From positions 1-52,763 of the forward strand of contig BGZO01000005.1 of the NCBI GenBank assembly GCA_003864475.1: 52,763 nt of DNA. Reading direction: 5' to 3'. The DNA comes from Candidatus Termititenax persephonae. Its GTDB lineage: Bacteria; Margulisbacteria; Termititenacia; Termititenacales; Termititenacaceae. Of the stretch, positions 6,485-51,649 are shown piece after piece (positions within the stretch are counted from its first letter, which is position 1; every line of letters starts with the position of its first letter). Made by a program: the position numbers and the translations under genes. Under the pieces are notes generated by a model that saw only the letters and a list, made by a program, of their open reading frames with translations, was not told where the DNA came from and ran no database searches.

Positions 6485-8608
6485 ATGAAAAAGTTTTGGT
6501 TGATTTTTGGCCTCGGTGCCTTGCTGTCTCTCGGCTACTCTTGGCCGTCCGCTCAGCAGAAACCGGAGCCTGTCCAGACGGACGGCTTGTCTGCTACGGC
6601 GTATTCCGCGCCGTTGCCGTCGTATCACACGCTGATTGTGGTGGAGTCTTTGTTTACGGAGCTTGACACGGGGACAGACAGTCCCGTCTCGGAATCGGCG
6701 TTGGTCATTTCGGCGGCGGCCGTCTCTGAGTCAGCGGCAATTGTTTCCGAGTCAGTGTCAGCCTCGCAGTCCATAGCCGCGCTGGAGCCGTTAAAGCCTG
6801 CGCTGTCTGCCGCCGCGACAGAATCTGTGGCCGTGCAGTCGCTGGAGCCTACCGAGGCCTTTGTCTTTGTAAGAAAAGCTGCCTTGGCGGAGACACTGCC
6901 GCAAACGCCAGAGATTGTTCCGTCCACGGTCTCGCGGGAATTTGGCACATTGAATGTCCGTGATGCCTCCGGTGTGGAGTATCAGCCGACTGTCTATCAA
7001 GAGATAGGCACGGATGTTTCTAGGGCGGGTAGTTTTGCCAATAACGTCAAAGTATCATCCTATTTTATCCCGGCGGACAAAAAAATCACGCTGTCTTACA
7101 GCGGGCTGGTCAGCAGTACCGTGCGTGAGCTGGTCATGGACACCAGCCATACTTATCAGGTTGAGCTGGGTCGAATAGAGGTGGAGAGAAGTTATTTGGT
7201 AACAAAAAGTGTTGTCACACTGGAGAGCGTGATGGTAACCGTGGCGGCCACGGTGAAGGAAAAAAAGGAAGATATTTTTGCCGCTCTTGAAGATGATTTA
7301 GAAAATATTGTGGCAGCCATGGCCACCGCCAGTGTTCCTATCGTCCCGGAGGTTGTGGCCGAGAAAAAAATAGAGGAGACTGCCTCCGATAATGCAGACG
7401 CTTTGGCCGCAGTGGAAAATATCGCCGAGACTGCCGCCACCGCCAGCGTTCCGGCTGCTCCCGAGGCTGTGGCCGAGAAGAATGGCTTTAATCCAATTCT
7501 TTTGCCGGATGTCCCTGTCGCTCCCGATACTGTGGCCGAGAAAAAAGCGGAAGAGACAGTATCCGATAATGCAGACGCTCTTGCCGCAGTGGAAAATATC
7601 ACCGAGACTGCCGCCACCGCCAGTGTTCCTATTGCCGCCGAGGTTGTCGCCGAGAAAAAAGTGGAAGAGAAAGTGTCCGATAATGAAGACGCTCTTGCCG
7701 CAGTAGAAAATATCACCGAGACTGCCGCCACCGCCAGCGTTCCGGCTGCTCCCGAGGCTGTGGCCGAGAAGAATGGCTTTAATCCAATTCTTTTGCCGGA
7801 TGTCCCTGTCGCTCCCGATACTATGGCCGAGAAAAAAGCGGAAGAGACAGTGTCCGATAATGCAGACGCTCTTGCCGCAGTGGAAAATATCACCGAGACT
7901 GCCGCCCTTGCCAGTGTCCCTATCGTCCCGGAGGCCGTGGCTGAAAAAAAGGCGGAGGAGTCCGTATCCGACAATGAGGAAGATACTTTTGCCGCCGTTG
8001 AGGATATTGTAGAGGTTGAGGCTGTGGCCTTCGAGCAAATCTTGGTGGAGACTGTAACCATAGTTACGGAGACTTATACGGCTCTTGAACCAGTCGAAGA
8101 TGTGCTGATCACGGACGGCAGTTTATGGGGCAGGGAGAACGAATTGCCCGTAACGGAAACTTCTTACTACACGCTGATAATTGCCGAGGCCGTCTATGAC
8201 GACACGCCGCTGCAGGGCTTGTATTCCTTTGGGCATTTGTTGGTCGAGGACGTGGACACGGACGAGCCATACAAAACTTTTAAGCTGTCCAACCGAACAG
8301 ATACGAGCAGGATTGGCGGTTTCTATAGAAATGTGCGCCAGTACCAATACTTGATTCCCGTCGGCGACCGCACTTTGAGATTTAAATATATCGCTGGCCG
8401 CCGCCGCAATAATTTGCCAAAAATCGACTGCGATGAGCTGTATCCCAATCCATTGCTAAACTATGTGCTGGACGGCACGCTCGGTACTTTTGATGTAACC
8501 AAGCTGGTAATGGATAACAATTATAATATCCATATCCGCACCGGCTGGGGTAGCGTCGAGGTGCTTAATAAAAAATCTGAATCTGCTTTGTCCGCGCAGG
8601 CACGCTGA
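6485..8608 (+). CDS. Hypothetical secreted protein with compound Ala/Val/Glu-rich repeats between two related terminal domains
   Basis: N-terminal signal-like MKKFWLIFGLGALLSLGYSWPS; central repeats ASVPAAPEAVAEKNGFNPILLPDVPVAPDTVAEKKAEETVSDNADALAAVENITETAAT; antisense ORFs across it look like composition artefacts. Confidence 0.8.
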   Translation: MKKFWLIFGLGALLSLGYSWPSAQQKPEPVQTDGLSATAYSAPLPSYHTLIVVESLFTELDTGTDSPVSESALVISAAAVSESAAIVSESVSASQSIAALEPLKPALSAAATESVAVQSLEPTEAFVFVRKAALAETLPQTPEIVPSTVSREFGTLNVRDASGVEYQPTVYQEIGTDVSRAGSFANNVKVSSYFIPADKKITLSYSGLVSSTVRELVMDTSHTYQVELGRIEVERSYLVTKSVVTLESVMVTVAATVKEKKEDIFAALEDDLENIVAAMATASVPIVPEVVAEKKIEETASDNADALAAVENIAETAATASVPAAPEAVAEKNGFNPILLPDVPVAPDTVAEKKAEETVSDNADALAAVENITETAATASVPIAAEVVAEKKVEEKVSDNEDALAAVENITETAATASVPAAPEAVAEKNGFNPILLPDVPVAPDTMAEKKAEETVSDNADALAAVENITETAALASVPIVPEAVAEKKAEESVSDNEEDTFAAVEDIVEVEAVAFEQILVETVTIVTETYTALEPVEDVLITDGSLWGRENELPVTETSYYTLIIAEAVYDDTPLQGLYSFGHLLVEDVDTDEPYKTFKLSNRTDTSRIGGFYRNVRQYQYLIPVGDRTLRFKYIAGRRRNNLPKIDCDELYPNPLLNYVLDGTLGTFDVTKLVMDNNYNIHIRTGWGSVEVLNKKSESALSAQAR
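7430..7900 (+). repeat. Compound in-frame tandem repeat, alternating 177-bp and 114-bp units (291-bp higher-order period)
   Basis: The phase-equivalent 'a' of ...gAgactgccgc occurs at 7430, 7607, 7721, 7898 (intervals 177, 114, 177); the 59-aa unit is the 38-aa unit plus a 21-aa insertion. Confidence 0.85.
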
Positions 8609-10925
8609 TTTCTTCGCCATGATAAATCTGGCCGTCCACTAAAACTTTACGGTACGGCACAGGCACTACCCAAGCGATGCGGCGCGGGCGGCGCGTGAAT
8701 CTGGGTTGCAGCGTCAATGTCGCGCCCCGGGCGGAGCTGGCGATGGTGTAATTGAGTTCGCCAAAATAAGTTGCCGCCTTGCTGACCGAGATTTTTTCGC
8801 CTTTGTACCATCTGGCCGGGACGACTGGCGTGATGAGCAAATCGTTGTTTTCCTCCAGATAGAGCATGTTGCGGACGAGCAGGCAAAAATCCGCCGCCGC
8901 CCAGCCGTGATGCCCGTCGCCGATGGTACCACCGAGCGTGCGCGGGTGTATCGCTTCCGGCCAGCACCAAGTCGGGGAGGCGACTTTGAGCAGCCAGCCG
9001 AGAATCTCCAGAGCCTTGGCGGAACGCTGCCCGATATAGCACTGGGCGATGTGCATGGTCAGGTATGTGCCGTAGCCGGAATGGTTAACGTCGTGGAAAA
9101 AACCGCCGCGGATAAAACATTTTTCCTGCAAGTATTTTACGGTATTGACCAGCCGCTGGTCGTCAGCGGCGTAGACACGGCAGGGATAATAAGCGGACAG
9201 ACAGCCGACGGCCGCCGAATCCATGCGGCGGCTGGGCGAGATGGGCATGATAGGCTGACCGAGATGCGCCTCGGCATAGAGCAGCGAGGTGTTCACCGCG
9301 TTTTGCAGTTTGGCCAGGCCGCGGCTCAAGCTGCTGCCTTTTTTCTGTAACTCCTCGCAGGCCTGCACGGCGGATTGCAGACCCGCCAAGGACCAAAAAT
9401 CATCCCAGTAATAATAATCATTGAGGCCGAAATGTTCAGCGGACAAGCCCGGCGGCATGATGTTGCGGTAGCCGGGGTGGAGATTGAGATTGGTCTGTGC
9501 CTTGCCGATAATCCACTGGGCGCCGCGCTTGATGATATCGTAGTTTTCTTTTAAAAAATCTTTGTCGCCAGTCAGGCGGTAATGCTCCATCAGCGTCCAG
9601 ATTGCCTGCCCGTTGGAGTCCCACTCGCCCTGCTGAGAGTGAAATAAGCCGCTGGCGAGAATTCTTTTGCGGAAAGTGTTGAGGACATTGCGGGTCTCTT
9701 GATGAAAGCCCAGCTTGTCCAAACCGTTGAGCAGGTATGTCGCATCGCGAAACCAAAACTCGTGATAGGTAGAAGGTCCCGGCGTGATGTAGGTGTTGTC
9801 GTAGAACATCAGCATGAAAGCCTTGTTGGCCTCAAAGCAGTCTTGGATTTTGGCATCCGGCACGGCGATACGCAGTCCGCTTTGCATTTTCTTTTGCCAA
9901 TTGCCGAGATGTTCTTGGAGCAGAGCAGCATAATTGCCCTGCCGCACCTGTTCGCTGTAAGCCGCCGAGAATTTTTTCTGGCGCAGTTTTTGGACAATCT
10001 TTTTATCCACGGGCAGGCGGGCTTCAAAGGCCGCGCTCTTGCCCGGCGGCAGTGTAACATGATAAACGCAGAGGCCTGTCGCCATGCCGACGCGCGACTT
10101 GCGGTAGTCCGTGATTTTGCCGTTGCTCTTCGCCTCGTCAAAAAACAATTTCACGTCGCCGCGCGACAGGCTGGAAGTCGTAGTGCCATTGGGGATTTGC
10201 AAAATAACCGCCGCCAAAGAGCCGTTGATGTAGACATCGCCGTTATCGCGGAAATCCAGCGTTCTAATCAAGGCAATGCCGTCATTGTTGTAAGGACGGA
10301 AAGCCCAGCTGAAACAAAAACTCTGCGTGGTCTTGGTCAGATTCTTCAGCTCGGTTCTTTGGTAGGCGACGGTTTTGAGGTCGCCAAAATCCTTGGCGAA
10401 AACCGTGCTGGTCATTTGGATTTTTTTCTCATAGGCCGTGGTGGTTACCACTATCGGCAAATTGTGCAGGAGGGTTTGCTCGCAATGCTCTTCTTGCGCC
10501 GGCGAGTACACTTTGTCGCCGATTTGCAGCCAAGTGTCCAATGACCAGCTGTTGAAATACGGCGTGGTCAGGCCGCGCGGGTCTATCGTGGCTTCGTATT
10601 CGGAATCAAGGTCGCCAATGCCTGTCCAGTTGCGGTAATTGGTGTTGATGGACGCGGGATTGAAACCGCGCGCCGAGAAGCCCTCGGAGGTCGCGTAAAA
10701 CTGCTTGACCATCCAGTACGGCCAAATCCAATCAAGATTGGTGGACACGACGAAGCGCGTAAAAAGTCCGCGCACAATATTTAAGATATTGAAGTCCATG
10801 AGGACTTTGGGAATCGGCTCGCCGGACGAATAGCCGATGGAAAGAAACGCGAAGACATAATCAGAAATAAACCCTAAACCAACCAAATACAAAGCCTTGG
10901 CGATGAGAAATTCTTTGACGCGCAT
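8565..10925 (-). CDS. Putative six-hairpin glycosidase-like protein (GH15/amylo-alpha-1,6-glucosidase-like fold)
   Basis: TYHEFWFRDATYLLNGLDKLGF, GEWDSNGQAIWTLMEHYRLTGDKDFLKENYDIIKRGAQWI, GTIGDGHHGWAAADFCLLVRNML are typical of (alpha/alpha)6 glycosidases; SD-like GGGGGTAAA-ATG. Confidence 0.65.
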   Translation of the reverse strand: MRVKEFLIAKALYLVGLGFISDYVFAFLSIGYSSGEPIPKVLMDFNILNIVRGLFTRFVVSTNLDWIWPYWMVKQFYATSEGFSARGFNPASINTNYRNWTGIGDLDSEYEATIDPRGLTTPYFNSWSLDTWLQIGDKVYSPAQEEHCEQTLLHNLPIVVTTTAYEKKIQMTSTVFAKDFGDLKTVAYQRTELKNLTKTTQSFCFSWAFRPYNNDGIALIRTLDFRDNGDVYINGSLAAVILQIPNGTTTSSLSRGDVKLFFDEAKSNGKITDYRKSRVGMATGLCVYHVTLPPGKSAAFEARLPVDKKIVQKLRQKKFSAAYSEQVRQGNYAALLQEHLGNWQKKMQSGLRIAVPDAKIQDCFEANKAFMLMFYDNTYITPGPSTYHEFWFRDATYLLNGLDKLGFHQETRNVLNTFRKRILASGLFHSQQGEWDSNGQAIWTLMEHYRLTGDKDFLKENYDIIKRGAQWIIGKAQTNLNLHPGYRNIMPPGLSAEHFGLNDYYYWDDFWSLAGLQSAVQACEELQKKGSSLSRGLAKLQNAVNTSLLYAEAHLGQPIMPISPSRRMDSAAVGCLSAYYPCRVYAADDQRLVNTVKYLQEKCFIRGGFFHDVNHSGYGTYLTMHIAQCYIGQRSAKALEILGWLLKVASPTWCWPEAIHPRTLGGTIGDGHHGWAAADFCLLVRNMLYLEENNDLLITPVVPARWYKGEKISVSKAATYFGELNYTIASSARGATLTLQPRFTRRPRRIAWVVPVPYRKVLVDGQIYHGEEISVPARTKQIQIFY

Positions 10926-26569: not shown

Positions 26570-27280
26570 TTAGACCCTAGCCAATCGATGAGTTTTTCGC
26601 TGGGCGTTGATTTTCTCATAGACAAAATCTGCGGACAATAAAGGGTCAAGCCGCTGGGCTATTTCCAGATTGGCTAGGCGGTGTTCTTGGCGGCGTTCGT
26701 TTTCCTCGGCGGTTTCTTTGTTGTTTTTGATTCTGATTTTTAAGACTTCCGCGTCAGCCAGATTAGTTTCCTTATAAATCTCCGCGGCCTGCAGGGCATC
26801 TTTTTTAGCCAGCAAATCTTGGACAGAGACGAAAGCAATCGGCGGTCTTTCGCCAAAATAATTAACCTTGGCGTGAGGAGAATTGTTCGTGGCGAGCCTA
26901 GGGTCGCTTTGCCGCAAAATATTGACCGCCAAATCGACAATGGTTTCTTCGGGATGCGCTTTTCGGCGTTCCAGCATTTGCGTAAAACTAATGCTCCTGC
27001 CGTCTTGATTGTATTTTTGAATGATGCCGAGGGCATGTCCGACAACTAAATCCATGATAAGGATTACGTCTTTTTCATTCTGGGCATTGTATTTAGCCAC
27101 CGCGTCGGCAATCTCTTTATGAGTATGGCCATTGAGATATTCCGTGGTGGTCAAGCCGCGTTGCTTAGCTTGATTGGCGGCGGTCAAGGCAACCAAATTT
27201 TCCACAATCTCGCGCTGAGACCGGGTGTTGGCGGCTTGATAATCTTGTATATTTACTGCTTGTAAATTACTGAGGGACAT
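26570..27280 (-). CDS. Hypothetical protein (236 aa)
   Basis: Long ORF of coding-like composition; no family recognised. Confidence 0.6.
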   Translation of the reverse strand: MSLSNLQAVNIQDYQAANTRSQREIVENLVALTAANQAKQRGLTTTEYLNGHTHKEIADAVAKYNAQNEKDVILIMDLVVGHALGIIQKYNQDGRSISFTQMLERRKAHPEETIVDLAVNILRQSDPRLATNNSPHAKVNYFGERPPIAFVSVQDLLAKKDALQAAEIYKETNLADAEVLKIRIKNNKETAEENERRQEHRLANLEIAQRLDPLLSADFVYEKINAQRKTHRLARV

Positions 27281-27589
27281 GTTCTAGGTCCTTTCTTCCC
27301 CCCTAAAAGCATATCCTTCTAATCTTATATTTCTATATCGATGGAATTCGGGCAAAACTTGCATGACTTGGTATAAATTTCTGAAAACAGGGTATTATAC
27401 ATATATGTATTTTTGTGGGAAAAATATTGCTTTTGCGAAAGCTGACGGCATGGCTTCTTCGCCCTTTATATTTACTGGGGGGGGGTAACAACTTCCTCTG
27501 AAGCCTACAAAAATATCACGTTAGACCTAAAACCTAATGTTGAGATACACCCAATACAGCAAAGCATCAATGACTATAGCGCACAAAAT

Positions 27590-33853: not shown

Positions 33854-33983
33854 AGAAGTAAGTCTGTCCGCTGTTGGATTGAGCGCCAAGAACGCGCCGT
33901 TTATGTCCTTGATAAAATTCAAAAAATCAGAAAAAACAAATCTCCCCCAACAGTCCGAAAACTCAAGTGGACAAGCCCAATAA
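33854..33983 (+). pseudogene. Mosaic gene remnant (internal piece of the 31116 gene + 3' end of the GT2 gene)
   Basis: 33854-33903 resembles 32838-32886 (EVSLSAVGLS...); 33899-33978 resembles 29186-29264 (MSLIKFKKSEKT...). Confidence 0.75.
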
Positions 33984-34298
33984 CTCCAGATAATTGCGCC
34001 GCGCGGCTAAAACACGGTGAATAATCACTTGTTTCAGTGTTTCATCGGTTACATAAAAAATCAAATAATTATCCACTGGTAAAATACGAAACCCTTGTTT
34101 ACGCAAAAACACATCTTTTACTAACGAATGTCTCTTGGGCAGGAACGTCAAATTAGAAATAGTTTTATAGAGTTTTGCCACTAATTTGACCGCCGTGTCC
34201 GGTGCGCTTAATTGCCGGGCTATATATTGAAATATTCCTCCCAAATCTTGATCCGCGCTGGGCGTAACTGTTACGGCGTACTTATTTGGCTTGCCCAT
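33963..34298 (-). CDS. RelE/ParE-family toxin
   Basis: YAVTVTPSADQDLGGIFQYIARQLSAPDTAVKLVAKLYKTISNLTFLPKRHSL...FRILPVDNYLIFYVTDETLKQVIIHRVLAARRNY; start taken at MGKPNK (34298). Confidence 0.85.
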   Translation of the reverse strand: MGKPNKYAVTVTPSADQDLGGIFQYIARQLSAPDTAVKLVAKLYKTISNLTFLPKRHSLVKDVFLRKQGFRILPVDNYLIFYVTDETLKQVIIHRVLAARRNYLELLGLST

Positions 34299-34554
34299 AT
34301 TGCGCCTGATACTTGGCAAACACTGTGTCCAAAGGCAGCAATTTTTGGCCGGAGGCGACTTCCGCTTGCGAAGCGGCTAATTTGTCGTAAATTTCCAATC
34401 TAGCCAAACGCTGTTCATAATCTTCCGCGCTCAAAACCACTAAGTCGGCATAGCCGTTTTTGGTAATGAAAATCGGCTCATGCTGGGAATGTGCCAGCTT
34501 AGCGATTTTTGTAGTATTTGTCCTTAATTCGGATAAAGGTTGTATGGTTGGCAT
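34282..34554 (-). CDS. Phd/YefM-family antitoxin
   Basis: MPTIQPLSELRTNTTKIAKLAHSQHEPIFITKNGYADLVVLSAEDYEQRLARLEIYDKL; overlaps the toxin start. Confidence 0.85.
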   Translation of the reverse strand: MPTIQPLSELRTNTTKIAKLAHSQHEPIFITKNGYADLVVLSAEDYEQRLARLEIYDKLAASQAEVASGQKLLPLDTVFAKYQAQYGQAK

Positions 34555-34613: not shown

Positions 34614-34713
34614 CTAATTATTCTTCGCTCAACAAAGCTAGCAGAGCCGCCAGATTGGCCTGCCAATTAATGGCCACTTCATTGGTCGACCAAGAATTTT
34701 GGTCATCGGCGTA
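34614..34713. repeat. 100-bp direct repeat copy 2 (3' end of the intact GH9 gene)
   Basis: Identical to 30914-31013. Confidence 0.95.
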
Positions 34714-37161
34714 AATACGCATCGCCGGATAAGTCTGAATGGACATGGCTATAGTGTCGCCGGAATACGCCACGCTGTTCGGGCCGCCGACCAGCAAGCC
34801 GTCCGGAGTAGGATATTGGCCGGACATAGATGGCCGGAAATGCGGCTGGCGCACTGATTTTTCGCCAAAACCAGTGATATAGGAAATACCGTTAGGATTT
34901 TTACCCAACAGATAATCCACTATTTTCAGTGCGCCCTGTTTATATTTAAGATTGCCAGTCTGTTTATAGATATACATTAACTCCAACCCGGCGGTGGCCG
35001 CTACGGAATTGGAACCCCAGTCAAATCCAGCGCCGATTCCGGCAAAAGCCAGACCGTAAGGATTTTCAGCCTGCCGCGCCAGCAAAGCATCCGCGTATTT
35101 AATTAACGCGCTCTCTATCTTCTGCTGTAATTCAGGGTCGGCGTTGGAATTGCGAGTATAAGAAAACAAGGCCAAATAATTGACGTTGCCCCAGTCCGGC
35201 GCGTTGTCGCCAAAGCGGTCTTGCGTCAACAGAGCGGGTAAATTGTCTTTAATATATTTTTGATATTTTGCTTCACCAGTGGCGTTAAAAAGCTCCACTG
35301 CCGCCCACAATCTTTCGTCTTGGTCTTGGTGGTCTGTGTAAGGCCCGCCGTATCTATGATTGTCATAAGTTTCCGCGGTCATAATTAAATCAGGATTTTG
35401 GACTAGAAAAGCCCAGGCTTGTTCCGCGGCGGCCAAATATTGCGCGGCCATAATTCTATCCTCGGCGACGGCGGAGTTTTTGTACTCGGCGTAGCCCAGC
35501 GCCATGGCCGCCGCGAAGTCTGCCGTGGCTGTGGTGGACACCGGAAGAACAGTTTTGAGCTGCGCATCGTCTTGCGGCGCGACTTCCGAAGCCAGCCATT
35601 CTGCCGCCGTTGCTTTATGATAGCAGGCTCCGTCCGTGCGCTGCATTTTGAGCAGAAAATCCAGTTCGTGTTTGACGATAGAGAGATAATCCGCCCGCGC
35701 CGCATTTTCGCGCGGCACCAGACCAGCGTCGTAAGCCAAATCATTGTCCGCATATTTTTTATTGACCAGCAGCAGACCCGCGCTGTAAGCGCCGTTGACC
35801 GTATATTTACCGTAATCACCGGCATCATGCCAGCCCCCAGAGACATCGATAGTCGTTTCAGAACCGTAAATTGGCGTTTCTTTATCCTGTTCATGAATAT
35901 TTCCGTAGGGTCCGTGTTCGCCGTCGGTAAACCATTTGAAGGCCAGTAAAGCGGCGTTACGTGTCGCGGACAGCCCGGCGGCGGGATTTTCTTTAAGGAC
36001 GACGGGTGTTTTTAATTCGCCGCTAATGCCGTTTTGTTGCGGCACAATCAGCGTGTATGTTCCCGGCTGTTCCAGCGCTGAAAAATCCAAAACCATTACT
36101 TTGGCTCCGGCATCTTTATAGACTTGATTGTAAGTTGACCTGCCAGTCCAGACGGCCTCTCCCTGTGTATTCTGTACCGAAAACTCCAGGCTGTCTACCG
36201 CACTATCCGCGGGAAGTTCCACAATGGCGGTCTTGGCAAAACCGCGGATATAACCGATTTGATTGCTCTGTATAGTTTGGTCATTGACTTGCGGCGCGGG
36301 TTCCGGCTGGACTACGATTTCAATATTGCTGACTCTGGCAAAATAATTTGTTGCTCCAGCGGTCATAAAAGCCAGCACGCCGATATTTTGCATCTCTTTA
36401 GGCACAATAAATTCATAAACGCCGTCCTGCGGCGGCACGAAGCCTTTAAGGTCGCTACCAAAATCCAGTTCAAAATTGCCGGGTTTCAGTTCAATTCCGT
36501 TCAGGGTTACTTGAAAAATTTTTTGCCCCCATAAAGCTCGAAAATCCTGTCCCACCTGTAAAGTCAGACGTAATGTTTTCTCGCCATAGTCTATGGTTTT
36601 ATTAACTACTACCGCGAACATTTCGCAATCGGCAAAACTGCTGTTGAGCCGTGGATCATAAATTTCAAAGCCGCCGGGAACCCGCCGACCCTGTAAACGG
36701 TTTTTGTCCCACAATGGTTCAATATGAGCCACGTTAATTTTTAAGACTTTTTCGTTTTCCGCCAAACCGCGGACAGGCTCCGTTATTGGACGAACCGCGT
36801 TATGCGCGGCATCCGGCTCCGGGTTTGGCTCAGAAACAATCGGCGCTTGAGCGCTGTAAACCAACTCTTTTAATAAATCTTCTTTGGTTTGGAAATGTTT
36901 CATTAGTTCGGCGACAGCGGCCTCAACTTCCGGCGTGTCAATAATATCGTTAAAAGCCGTGTCCTCGCGGCTTTGGGTGTCCACGAATTGCCGCAGAGTT
37001 CTCTGGTATTTCTGCGGCAGCTCGTCGATAGGCCGACCCTCTAGGATTAACTGCAAAGCTTGTTTTATTTCCTGCTCGGAATCAATCTCGCCGCTAAAAT
37101 CCGCGTCCGCGCGGCGCAGCTCTCTTTGATAGAATGCGGCATTATCAATGTTAATACCCAT
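34618..37161 (-). CDS. GH9-family endoglucanase with N-terminal EF-hand/dockerin-like module, CBM-like domain and CelD_N-like Ig domain
   Basis: TIDVSGGWHDAGDYGKYTVNGAYSAGLLL, YGGPYTDHQDQDERLWAAVELF, DYLLGKNPNGISYITGFG, PDGLLVGGPNS are GH9 signatures. Confidence 0.9.
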   Translation of the reverse strand: MGINIDNAAFYQRELRRADADFSGEIDSEQEIKQALQLILEGRPIDELPQKYQRTLRQFVDTQSREDTAFNDIIDTPEVEAAVAELMKHFQTKEDLLKELVYSAQAPIVSEPNPEPDAAHNAVRPITEPVRGLAENEKVLKINVAHIEPLWDKNRLQGRRVPGGFEIYDPRLNSSFADCEMFAVVVNKTIDYGEKTLRLTLQVGQDFRALWGQKIFQVTLNGIELKPGNFELDFGSDLKGFVPPQDGVYEFIVPKEMQNIGVLAFMTAGATNYFARVSNIEIVVQPEPAPQVNDQTIQSNQIGYIRGFAKTAIVELPADSAVDSLEFSVQNTQGEAVWTGRSTYNQVYKDAGAKVMVLDFSALEQPGTYTLIVPQQNGISGELKTPVVLKENPAAGLSATRNAALLAFKWFTDGEHGPYGNIHEQDKETPIYGSETTIDVSGGWHDAGDYGKYTVNGAYSAGLLLVNKKYADNDLAYDAGLVPRENAARADYLSIVKHELDFLLKMQRTDGACYHKATAAEWLASEVAPQDDAQLKTVLPVSTTATADFAAAMALGYAEYKNSAVAEDRIMAAQYLAAAEQAWAFLVQNPDLIMTAETYDNHRYGGPYTDHQDQDERLWAAVELFNATGEAKYQKYIKDNLPALLTQDRFGDNAPDWGNVNYLALFSYTRNSNADPELQQKIESALIKYADALLARQAENPYGLAFAGIGAGFDWGSNSVAATAGLELMYIYKQTGNLKYKQGALKIVDYLLGKNPNGISYITGFGEKSVRQPHFRPSMSGQYPTPDGLLVGGPNSVAYSGDTIAMSIQTYPAMRIYADDQNSWSTNEVAINWQANLAALLALLSEE
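36929..37161 (-). repeat. Duplicated 5' gene module (N-terminal LRRADA domain), copy in the GH9 gene
   Basis: High nucleotide identity by eye to 40198-40430. Confidence 0.9.
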
Positions 37162-37174
37162 GGCCGGGCTCCTT

Positions 37175-37897
37175 TTAGTTTTTCAGCTCAACCTGGACAG
37201 TCATTTTAAAACCATTGTTTACAAAACCTTTAATGCCAACCCAGATATCTTTCATACCGGAGATGTCATAAACTAATTCGTCGCCGGCATCGAGGCTTTG
37301 CTCAATGTAACTATCGTTAACGGTAAAGCCTTCCGGCTCCGGGAAAGCTCCCATTACAGGATTGTGATTGTAGGTGTTTTGGGGGTCATAAGGTCCTTCG
37401 TTCAAGCCAAAGCCCACAGCTTTGCCGCCCCAAATAAGTTTGTCTTTCCCTTCTATGGATGTTACCGTAACCACCAGTTTGGTATAGCCAGAGGGATTGA
37501 TTTTGCCGAGAAATACTCCCGAAGCTTCGCCCCTAGTACCGGAACCGTCAATAGTTAAAGTGTTGCCATTGACCGTATATTTGCCGGGACCCCAGACCAC
37601 TTCCGGTTTCTTCAGCAGCGCGACAGGTTTGCTGTCGGACTGCACGGCCTGTGTCGCCTGCACCGCATTGTTTTGCCCCAAGGCCACCCGGCGCAAATAG
37701 CTTTCCGCTTCCGACACGGAGCTGCCGTTGAATTTTTGCGCAGCCTCTTTGGACACTTCCTGGGCAGCGTTAAGCAATTCCTCATTTGTGTCTATGCTAC
37801 CGTTGTAGGCTTTGTCTCCATTGCCTGCATCCGCTCTGCGTAAAGCGCGCTGATATTGTGGTAACGCTTCTGAAATCTTTAATGAAAATCCGCTCAT
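37175..37897 (-). CDS. CBM-like beta-sandwich protein with N-terminal LRRADA module
   Basis: YQRALRRADAGNGDKAYNGSIDTNEELLNAAQEV N-terminus; beta-sandwich-like remainder (WGPGKYTVNGNTLTIDGSGTRGEASGVFLGKINPSGYTKLVVTVTS). Confidence 0.65.
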   Translation of the reverse strand: MSGFSLKISEALPQYQRALRRADAGNGDKAYNGSIDTNEELLNAAQEVSKEAAQKFNGSSVSEAESYLRRVALGQNNAVQATQAVQSDSKPVALLKKPEVVWGPGKYTVNGNTLTIDGSGTRGEASGVFLGKINPSGYTKLVVTVTSIEGKDKLIWGGKAVGFGLNEGPYDPQNTYNHNPVMGAFPEPEGFTVNDSYIEQSLDAGDELVYDISGMKDIWVGIKGFVNNGFKMTVQVELKN

Positions 37898-37967
37898 AAT
37901 TTTTCTCCTTTACTGTTTTTATTTTTTTGAAATACAAAATACGATCAAGATGACAATTTAAAGAGGT

Positions 37968-37988
37968 CTACATAGGCAACACCTCCTT
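37968..37988 (-). promoter_or_regulatory. Start-stop element: strong SD followed by ATG-TAG
   Basis: Minus strand AAGGAGGTG-TTGCCT-ATG-TAG in the leader of the 37897 gene. Confidence 0.55.
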
Positions 37989-38028
37989 CTTAAGATTTAT
38001 CTATGAAATATTTGTCTATAAATTTTAC

Positions 38029-38057
38029 GGGGGGGGGGGGGGGGGGGGTTTTTTTTT
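38029..38057. repeat. Homopolymer tract G20-T9 (plus strand)
   Basis: Direct reading; exact length uncertain in any assembly. Confidence 0.8.
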
Positions 38058-38133
38058 ATTAACATTTTCTCTTTTTAAATTTCCACCATTTTGTATACCC
38101 TCTTTTTTAAAAATTATAATTTATTTTGTTTAA

Positions 38134-38165
38134 TTTTTTTTTTTTTTTTTCTCTGGGGGGGGGGG
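38134..38165. repeat. Homopolymer tracts T17 and G11
   Basis: Direct reading (T17 38134-38150, G11 38155-38165). Confidence 0.8.
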
Positions 38166-38267
38166 TAATTGTTAAGTAATAATCATTCATTTTCAACTCC
38201 TACCATATTGTATACCCACTTTGTTAAAAATTATACATATATGTTGTCAAGATTTTTTCTTTATTTT

Positions 38268-40430
38268 TCAAATCCCATATTTTGCCTTAAATAAATTTAA
38301 CGCAAAGGCGATAAGGTTGCTGGTGAAGTAGTCGTCGGCATCAGTTGTAAAATGTCCAGCGGTATAATTCTCTTTTAATAATTTATAACATTTCAGGGCA
38401 TTGGCTTGATCGTCCCGCGCGCAAAATACAGCCAACGCAATGCCCATGCCAAACGGCGTGCTTTTGCTCTGCGCACCGCGGCGGTTATTCTCCGGCAAAG
38501 TGCCGTCTACATTGTAGGCGTTATATATCCAGTTGTTTTTGGCCAGTTCGTCTGCGAAAAATTTGCCGGCTTTGTCCAGCAGAGTTTTGGACTGTGCGTT
38601 GCCATTCTGCACATAATCATAGGCCGCCCAGGTGTAAAGCCGCAAAGCGTCCCAACTGCTCAAGTGCGTGTCCTGCGCTTCCCCGCTGGCAAAAGAGTCC
38701 CAAGTGCCGTAAGCGCTGGTTAAGCCCTCGACCGTGAAAGCGTTCCAGTCCGGCACTAAAACGCCGTTGCTGCGATACTCGCGTCCGCCGGGTTTGGCAT
38801 CGCGGTAAGGCACAGCGCGACTCAGCGCGGCATCCACATTTTTATAACTCTCGTTAAATAAGCGTCCCCAATCATGTGCGCGGTCAACCTTGCTGAATTC
38901 CGCCAGCGCAAAAGGCATAAAGTAAGAAAGATTAAAAACGTTGCTGCCCTTATTGTTGGCAGAGATGAACAGATGTTCGGCGGCAGGGGCGGCGACTGTT
39001 TTGCGGTTTAAGTGAATGTCGGTGATGGTCAATATCACGCCGGCTCGGTCGCTTTGCATAGCAAAGTTGTCGAGTGTAGCCTTGCCAGGGATGCGCACGG
39101 CTGGAGATTTGTAGTTCCAGTCGCCACTGGTGTGCCGCTCTTTGAACGCGCTGATTGGCACTATGTTTTCTCCGGGTTTTAAATTGTAATCGCAGGCGTA
39201 GTCCGGTTGGCCGCCTTTGCCCTGAAACATCAATTTTACAGCGCAGGCTTTCTCCGCCTGAATAGTTATGGATTGATAGGTGTCAGCGAAATCCGCCAGA
39301 GCCAGACTATGCACGCCGTAACTGCTGTAGGGTTGATGAAAGGAAATCGTGGTTTGGCCGTTCGCAAAACTGGCCGTGGCCGCCGGATTGGGTGTGCTGG
39401 CGTTCTTAATGTTGGTGTCCCAAACATGCTCATTTAATTTCAACGCCACTTCCGCGCCGCCAGTCCTGATCGACAGCACACAGCTTTGCCAAACATCATT
39501 TAGTATTTGCAAGGCCAGGCCTTTATAGTTTTTATTGCCGCTGGTGCTGCCCCATTTTTTGTCGGCCAGCAGTAAAGTGTAAGCAATCAGAATGTCCGCA
39601 TCCGGCGCGGCATCATATCCGTCAAACCAAACGCTGGGGTCATTGGGGTCCCATTGATATTGAAAAACTCCGGTGTGCTTGCCAAGCTGTTGGGAAAGCG
39701 CCGAACCTTGTCCGACATAACGCCAGGCGGCCAGATAATCACGCGCCTCCGCGTCAATATTTTCACGCTTGTTGATGGAATACACGCGGCGCAGGCTCGC
39801 GCTGTCATGATAAATATTGGCTCGCGCCCAATCCCAGACCTGATCAAAAGTTTGGCGGTCGTTGTTATTGATGGCCTGAAACATGACGTAAGAAACTGTT
39901 TCCGAAAAAGTATTATTGTCGTCGCCAAGTGGCCGACCCGTAGCCGCGTCAATCTTGGCAGTTTTGTAATGCGCCCAGATTTCGGGGATTGTTTTAGCTA
40001 TATCTTGGAGCAAGTCGGCAAAAGAAGTGATCTCCGTACGGCCAGAGGCCGCTGAGGCAACGCTGTCGATTTTTGGCGCAACGTCCGCTTGAGCAATATT
40101 TTTAGAGTTCATATTGTTTGTTCCGTAAACAAAATCTTGGAGCAAGTCTTCCTGTGTCCGATAATGCTTGGACAATTCGGCAACGGCAGCCTCGACTTCC
40201 GGCGCATCAATAATATCATTGAAAGCCGTATCTTTGTGGCTTTGGGTGTCCACGAATTGCCGCAAAATCCTCTGGTATTTCTGCGGTAGCTCGTCGATAG
40301 GCCGACCCTCTAAGATTAACTGCAAAGCTTGTTTTATTTCCTGCTCGGAATCAATCTCGCCGCTAAAATCCGCGTCCGCGCGGCGCAACTCTCGGGCATA
40401 AAACTTGGCGTTGTCAATATTTATAGTCAT
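38268..40430 (-). CDS. GH8-family endoglucanase with N-terminal EF-hand/dockerin-like module and internal CBM-like insertion
   Basis: TFSETVSYVMFQAINNNDRQTFDQVWDWARANI, DAAPDADILIAYTLLLADKKWGS, NLSYFMPFALAEFSKVDRAHDWGRLFNESY, SSWDALRLYTWAAYDY. Confidence 0.85.
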   Translation of the reverse strand: MTINIDNAKFYARELRRADADFSGEIDSEQEIKQALQLILEGRPIDELPQKYQRILRQFVDTQSHKDTAFNDIIDAPEVEAAVAELSKHYRTQEDLLQDFVYGTNNMNSKNIAQADVAPKIDSVASAASGRTEITSFADLLQDIAKTIPEIWAHYKTAKIDAATGRPLGDDNNTFSETVSYVMFQAINNNDRQTFDQVWDWARANIYHDSASLRRVYSINKRENIDAEARDYLAAWRYVGQGSALSQQLGKHTGVFQYQWDPNDPSVWFDGYDAAPDADILIAYTLLLADKKWGSTSGNKNYKGLALQILNDVWQSCVLSIRTGGAEVALKLNEHVWDTNIKNASTPNPAATASFANGQTTISFHQPYSSYGVHSLALADFADTYQSITIQAEKACAVKLMFQGKGGQPDYACDYNLKPGENIVPISAFKERHTSGDWNYKSPAVRIPGKATLDNFAMQSDRAGVILTITDIHLNRKTVAAPAAEHLFISANNKGSNVFNLSYFMPFALAEFSKVDRAHDWGRLFNESYKNVDAALSRAVPYRDAKPGGREYRSNGVLVPDWNAFTVEGLTSAYGTWDSFASGEAQDTHLSSWDALRLYTWAAYDYVQNGNAQSKTLLDKAGKFFADELAKNNWIYNAYNVDGTLPENNRRGAQSKSTPFGMGIALAVFCARDDQANALKCYKLLKENYTAGHFTTDADDYFTSNLIAFALNLFKAKYGI
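40198..40430 (-). repeat. Duplicated 5' gene module, copy in the GH8 gene
   Basis: See 36929-37161. Confidence 0.9.
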
Positions 40431-51523: not shown

Positions 51524-51649
51524 ATGGTTAGTGGCCAGACACTCGGACATTCAGATAATCGCGCGGCGGACGCGGGGTTTCCGCGCCGTTCCGGCGTTGT
51601 GTTAAGTAATACTTACCCCCCCCCCCCCCCCCCACAATTTTTGGCTTAG
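51524..51649 (+). CDS. Small ORF (41 aa) running into a C18 tract
   Basis: AAGGAG-acatccc-ATG; MVSGQTLGHSDNRAADAGFPRRSGVVLSNTY(P)6QFLA*. Confidence 0.4.
   Translation: MVSGQTLGHSDNRAADAGFPRRSGVVLSNTYPPPPPPQFLA
51616..51633. repeat. Homopolymer tract C18
   Basis: Direct reading. Confidence 0.8.

Follow-up and report, generated by a model that had tools for sequence, protein, structure and literature searches.

The analyzed window, positions 1 to 52,763 of contig BGZO01000005.1 of Candidatus Termititenax persephonae (Margulisbacteria; assembly GCA_003864475.1; 52,763 nucleotides), encodes a glycoside hydrolase family 9 (GH9) cellulase, a family 8 glycoside hydrolase (GH8) and a carbohydrate-binding module (CBM)-like protein that begin with a common EF-hand-like module and lack Sec signal peptides. 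Based on sequence comparisons, we propose that this module, a helix-loop-helix unit of EF-hand-like type present in one or two copies from the initiator methionine (Met) of the cargo onward, would act as an N-terminal export tag independent of Sec and route the cargo out of the cell. An export role of the module, by whatever route, seems probable. Its likely exit would be a filament-less flagellar-type type III secretion system (T3SS; FliK, FlgE/F/G-like proteins, FliM/N, FliOPQR, FlhB and FlhA) present across Margulisbacteria, and some of the carriers probably depend for their transcription on a sigma factor whose gene adjoins that of FlhA in several genomes. The full mechanism, tag and exit together, is put forward tentatively, and with somewhat greater reserve the wider idea that the filament-less flagellum may be a general secretion machine, for which an EF-hand-like N-terminal domain would be a portable label on cellulases and other enzymes.

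A common N-terminal module on three signal-less proteins

The following features were delimited in the window by open reading frames (ORFs), Pfam or profile matches (E, expectation value) and structure models:

34618-37161, reverse strand: GH9 cellulase gene, 847 amino acids, without signal (ORF; Pfam PF00759, E 2.5e-77; PF02927, E 1.4e-14)
34639-35904, reverse strand: GH9 catalytic domain, in a protein composed of a CelD_N immunoglobulin-like domain and this catalytic domain (Pfam PF00759 placement)
36847-37161, reverse strand: double EF-hand-like module at the start of GH9, consisting of units 36985-37161 and 36862-37029 (profile matches)
37175-37897, reverse strand: gene of the CBM-like protein, 240 amino acids, without signal, its C-terminal part a beta-sandwich (ORF; structure model)
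37685-37897, reverse strand: one EF-hand-like unit, N-terminal in the CBM-like protein (one-unit profile, E 6.5e-21)
38268-40430, reverse strand: GH8 gene, 720 amino acids, without signal (ORF; Pfam PF01270, E 3.9e-16)
40113-40430, reverse strand: double EF-hand-like module at the start of GH8, consisting of units 40254-40430 and 40152-40298 (profiles; AlphaFold2 model)

In the preliminary description of this DNA, a common module had been proposed for the three proteins, with a second, related segment in GH9 and GH8. Both proposals were confirmed, as the sequences quoted there start all three proteins at the initiator Met, and a one-unit profile recovered the second segment at 36862-37029 in GH9 and 40152-40298 in GH8. 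A single unit was recovered in the CBM-like protein, which thus holds half the module. The GH9 and GH8 modules were 85% identical over their first 104 amino acids, unlike the catalytic parts, which are unrelated (different GH families). At the DNA level 260 of 330 nucleotides were identical, with a nearly perfect match in the core (nucleotides 60-150), indicating that one copy was recently duplicated or converted.

The absence of Sec signal peptides, also noted in that description, was upheld. In-frame stops lie 7, 4 and 3 codons 5' of the ATG in the GH9, CBM-like and GH8 genes, respectively, each ATG is preceded by a Shine-Dalgarno-like sequence, and no hydrophobic N-terminal segment was found in any of the three proteins (hydropathy and upstream-stop checks with positive controls). 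Taken together, these results exclude a missed signal peptide, and no alternative upstream start could add one.

The AlphaFold2 model of the GH8 double module consisted of two helix-loop-helix units (mean predicted local distance difference test, pLDDT, 82), and the loops followed the consensus D-x-N-x-[DNS]-G-x-I-D. Among 29 units, loop position 5 was D, N or S in 29, position 6 was G in 20 and position 8 was I or L in 29; model and tally conform to an EF-hand superfamily helix-loop-helix with a D-x-[DN]-x-[DNS]-G-x-I loop. Glutamate was found at loop position 13 in 24/29 units and at the canonical position 12 in 11/29. The earlier designation of the loop as EF-hand-like agrees with its residue pattern, with the correction that the acidic residue lies mostly one position beyond the canonical one. 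No significant EF-hand profile or fold match was obtained: the best PDB profile matches were calmodulin (E 0.064) and calbindin (E 0.032), Foldseek returned no match of E below 1 with the module model, and Pfam searches with 14 module units gave no fitting family (best EF-hand E 0.0076) and no dockerin family among the matches at E<=10. The lists of weak fold and sequence matches were rich in EF-hand proteins, and no known unrelated domain matches the module. The beta-sandwich of the CBM-like protein had CBM86 as its best PDB match (model confidence only pLDDT 65), and the CBM domain was homologous to a lipoprotein-type CBM protein of another genome (G050; E 3e-12; genomes, contigs and loci are denoted G, C and L hereafter).

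Spread of the module and its exchange for export signals

When a single module sequence was used to scan GTDB contigs for close relatives, no match was obtained, so that profiles were needed; a double-module and a single-unit (A7) profile were used. The double-module profile found relatives within the same genus and across the phylum, and with the single-unit profile the module was detected at E<=0.001 in 16 of 74 Margulisbacteria genomes, belonging to nine families, and in 0 of 21 genomes outside the phylum. The profile search across related genomes that the preliminary description had called for thus revealed carriers beyond the three window genes; of the outcomes named there as contrary to its proposal (no other carriers, an upstream start adding a signal, a match to a known unrelated domain), none was obtained.

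The carriers were diverse, with GH9, GH8, GH48, CBM-like, HEAT and ankyrin proteins counted as cargo types. GH48 cellulases bore the module in G054, G050, G014 and G013, adjoined by CBM-like carriers; HEAT-repeat carriers were found in G009 and G040, an ankyrin carrier in G058, beta-barrel-like carriers (judged from sequence by eye) in G005, G002 and G001, and small carriers of little but the module in G003, G005 and G007. The module stood at the protein start in 26/26 carriers checked, in two of them displaced by one residue relative to the automatically called start. In these carriers the ORF could be extended by at most 32 codons, and no signal-like hydrophobic segment preceded or overlapped the module in any of the 26. 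Identity as Sec or lipoprotein cellulases was rejected, given that the module carriers have no N-terminal signal peptide.

The strongest, if indirect, evidence suggesting an export role came from the exchange of the module for a signal among homologs. In G054 the module is borne by GH48, and the adjoining GH8 has a lipoprotein-type signal; on a Saganbacteria contig (L096), the related GH48, which shares 46% identity with the G054 protein, has a lipoprotein-type signal in place of the module. The two GH48 loci are syntenic, with two flanking genes 62% identical, and the L096 protein also holds a region resembling the CBM-like proteins (the resemblance is weak, E 0.004-0.01). Given the lipoprotein-type signals on the syntenic GH48 and on the CBM homolog, the module stands where relatives of the carriers have an export signal. 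By eye, GH9 proteins elsewhere in the phylum had signal-like N-termini in G016, G060 and one of G013, and no such N-terminus in G019. The GH48 carriers of G054 sit in a catabolic cluster with a sugar ATP-binding cassette (ABC) transporter and a GH94-like phosphorylase (assigned by eye), which implies an extracellular substrate. The earlier suggestion of an undescribed export tag, or non-Sec delivery, is hence supported indirectly by the N-terminal position in all 26 carriers, the exchange for signals, the lack of a Pfam family and the phylum-wide cargo.

Some related sequences were recorded in the same searches. A 1039-amino-acid protein of the window's own genome (C1; L056 4137-7256) has an N-terminal stretch like that of the G001 carrier, below the profile threshold. 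The GH48 gene of G050 (L030 9608-11462) is split over two ORFs, possibly by a frameshift that is either genuine or an assembly error, and a short contig labelled Thermodesulfobacteriota (L092, JASEHN010000469.1) carries the gene of a GH48 sharing 46% identity with its G054 counterpart, possibly through misbinning or transfer. The GH9 of G019 (L106 278-3210), with neither a signal-like N-terminus nor the module, lies downstream of a gene with a sigma-28-like promoter.

A flagellin-less flagellar-type apparatus and a sigma-28-like promoter

FlhA was found in 66 of 74 phylum genomes and flagellin in only 8 of 74. Among the 16 module-bearing genomes, 14 had no flagellin and 14 had FlhA, the other two (G001, G003) having FliP. 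Since nearly every genome of the phylum has the T3SS, its co-occurrence with the module is uninformative. In a tree of 40 FlhA sequences, those of the phylum split into type A (100/99), found in flagellin-bearing genomes, and type B, which formed a single clade (100/100) with members from all sampled phylum genomes except G015, from which one FlhA was fetched. A few genomes possess a true flagellum in addition to the type B apparatus. Type B FlhA genes lie with genes for FliK, an FlgE/F/G-like rod or hook protein, FliM and FliN, as well as FliO-FliP-FliQ-FliR and FlhB (judged by order and sequence). In the genome to which the window belongs, the apparatus was placed as follows:

C1 (L055 13137-16428): flagellar-type T3SS without flagellin
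C34 (L146 1389-5946): flagellar-type T3SS without flagellin

An extreme N-terminal position and the lack of a Sec signal, both expected of flagellar T3SS cargo, were found in 26/26 carriers. An injectisome was rejected for the window's genome, whose FlhA and FlhB score above the cut-offs of the flagellar equivalogs but not above those of SctV/SctU, and so was cargo of an extracellular contractile injection system (eCIS), as the sheath (PF04984) was found in 0/69 genomes.

The motif TGAAATTT-N14-CGATA, which presumably represents a sigma-28-like promoter given its resemblance to promoters of that class, was found upstream of several carriers, and the window's genus also shows the variant GCAAGTTT-N14-CGATA. 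The fetched sequence scanned amounted to about 1 Mb and was partly overlapping, each site being counted once. The two elements TGAAATTT and CGATA occurred at 21 sites with a spacing of 14, versus 1 site for the remaining spacings between 6 and 23 combined. Of the 24 carriers, 8 had a site no more than 160 bp away, versus 18 of 537 other genes, the latter including overlapping copies (p 3e-6). The promoter also precedes a small gene that follows type B FlhA in G050, G040, G013 and G023, and a sigma-70-family factor with regions 2 and 4 is encoded downstream of that small gene in the first three. The classic sigma-28 pattern TAAA-N-GCCGATAA was discarded, with a single match before one carrier (G032), the form of the phylum being different. 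In the window, one site and the gene behind it were recorded:

27336-27362, reverse strand: sigma-28-like site GCAAGTTT-N14-CGATA, before 26570-27280 (motif scan, spacing control)
26570-27280, reverse strand: 236-amino-acid protein without signal and without module, possible member of the same regulon (ORF; upstream promoter-like site)

The promoter was seen in other contexts as well. A locus around type B FlhA (L149; G040:C16 50000-69999) has eight TGAAATTT-N14-CGATA matches in 20 kb, most of them preceding genes whose predicted products seem to lack a signal, and may be a cluster of cargo yet to be recognised. A transglutaminase-like protein, apparently signal-less and of up to 2308 amino acids in one frame (L027 2040-8966, L028 941-3106, L029 3-686), is encoded by a gene that points away from the beta-barrel-like carrier and that in three species is preceded by GCAAGTTT-N14-CGATA.

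Upstream of the CBM-like gene of the window, poly-C tracts of 20 (38029-38048) and 11 nucleotides (38155-38165) were observed on the reverse strand, and no known RNA element was found in the leader of this gene. In relatives, poly-C of 17 lies upstream of small module-bearing genes (L042 1772-1788, L043 1353-1369). Further poly-C or poly-G tracts of the genus were located in the window at 51616-51633 (forward strand, 18) and 27477-27485 (9), and at L155 2592-2612 (21). Phase-variable expression by slippage is possible for the poly-C tracts upstream of the CBM-like and small module-bearing genes. The GH9 locus is adjoined by a ParE-type toxin gene (33963-34319, reverse strand), and a glucoamylase-like protein with a hydrophobic N-terminus is encoded at 8565-10925, reverse strand (TIGR01577, E 7e-10, below the cut-off).

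Possible roles of the module and comparison with known systems

Several points weigh against tagging for the flagellar-type apparatus. Export itself stays a prediction; nearly all genomes of the phylum have the T3SS, whereas the module is present in 22%; and the model shows an ordered N-terminus, which is repeated in the second unit, whereas typical T3SS cargo signals are disordered. Inspection of seven carriers by eye first drew attention to the promoter motif, and carriers and T3SS loci are overrepresented in the fetched DNA; only later were the G037 site and the sigma operons added and the spacing tested. Besides, the promoter was not found before the GH9, CBM-like and GH8 genes of the window, where the best scores were not significant (7 two-mismatch sites versus 5.7 expected), and its class also precedes the Sec-type GH8 of G054. 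Recognition of the module, passage of the cargo through the apparatus and any calcium dependence are what we infer.

Since all the evidence for an export tag is independent of the route, the module could address another, unrecognised route, with the common promoter, whose class includes a Sec-type GH8, reflecting co-regulation only. This appears rather unlikely: no contractile sheath occurs in the 69 genomes, FlhA and FlhB of the window's genome are flagellar with no injectisome seen, and no other candidate machine emerged, in a survey that did not extend to type VI, type IV and other systems. A slightly lower probability is given to a dockerin-like docking domain, which would attach the CBM and the enzymes to one shared partner at the cell surface once they had been exported by some unspecified route. 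The duplicated EF-hand-like unit fits such a role, and so does the finding of CBM and GH48 as separate module-bearing proteins in G054, G050 and G014 and as one fused lipoprotein-type protein in L096. Dockerins, however, accompany Sec signals and do not replace them, and the module is always N-terminal and never found with a signal peptide, so docking would still need an explanation of export. Neither a dockerin profile match nor a cohesin in the window's own genome was obtained (PF00963 passed the cut-off only in G040 and G046 of 69 genomes), on which grounds dockerin identity was rejected and the cellulosome-like system envisaged in the preliminary description was abandoned.

The enzymes could also be cytoplasmic, with the module as a regulatory or solubility domain, in keeping with the lack of signal peptides and with the intracellular GH8 and GH9 enzymes known in other bacteria. 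However, GH48, CBM-like and beta-barrel-like partners would make no sense in the cytosol and relatives with the same domains carry lipoprotein-type signals, which renders this option improbable. A local accident, in which neighbouring genes recently acquired a common N-terminus by duplication without a function of its own, would account for the nearly identical DNA of the GH9 and GH8 module cores; it is refuted by the phylum-wide distribution of the module, on unrelated cargo in nine families, and we give it hardly any weight. Export of tagged cargo through the flagellar-type apparatus is retained as a tentative proposal.

The 2019 Termititenax genome paper reportedly described cellulose-fermenting Margulisbacteria. 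If the proposal is true, an uncultured phylum related to Cyanobacteria would export cellulases without Sec, by means of a flagellum-derived machine and a portable folded label. This would suggest a purpose for flagellin-less flagellar systems, and provide a searchable cargo signature and a compact export tag. Even if the route were different, the literature searched contained no description of a calcium-loop-like domain taking the place of signal peptides across a phylum.

Among known systems, the module resembles type I dockerins in being a duplicated EF-hand-like loop unit on cellulases, and differs from them in its N-terminal position, its replacement of the signal peptide, the acidic residue at position 13 and the lack of a Pfam match and of a cohesin. 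Conserved N-terminal domains of about 100 amino acids on diverse signal-less secreted proteins are known as LXG/WXG-type and MIX-type domains of type VII and type VI systems, respectively; no sequence relation of the module to them was found, the systems themselves not having been searched for. The injectisome, or non-flagellar T3SS, derives from the flagellar export apparatus and is used for secretion (PMC3459982); unlike in that system, FlhA and FlhB here pass the flagellar cut-offs, and flagellar FliK and rod or hook genes remain.

In Campylobacter, non-flagellar cargo of the flagellar T3SS carries N-terminal export information (PMC2764114). Signal-less proteins with N-terminal export information are found there as would be the case here, where export is predicted. 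Unlike the Campylobacter cargo, the proteins described here have in common a conserved, apparently folded EF-hand-like domain of ~65-105 amino acids on otherwise unrelated cargo, cellulases are among them, and the apparatus is without flagellin. Buchnera has kept flagellar basal body and export genes without a filament, with a role given as unknown (PMC8109811). Unlike what is reported there for Buchnera, the apparatus of Margulisbacteria spans most of a phylum, is sometimes found beside a true flagellum and has candidate cargo.
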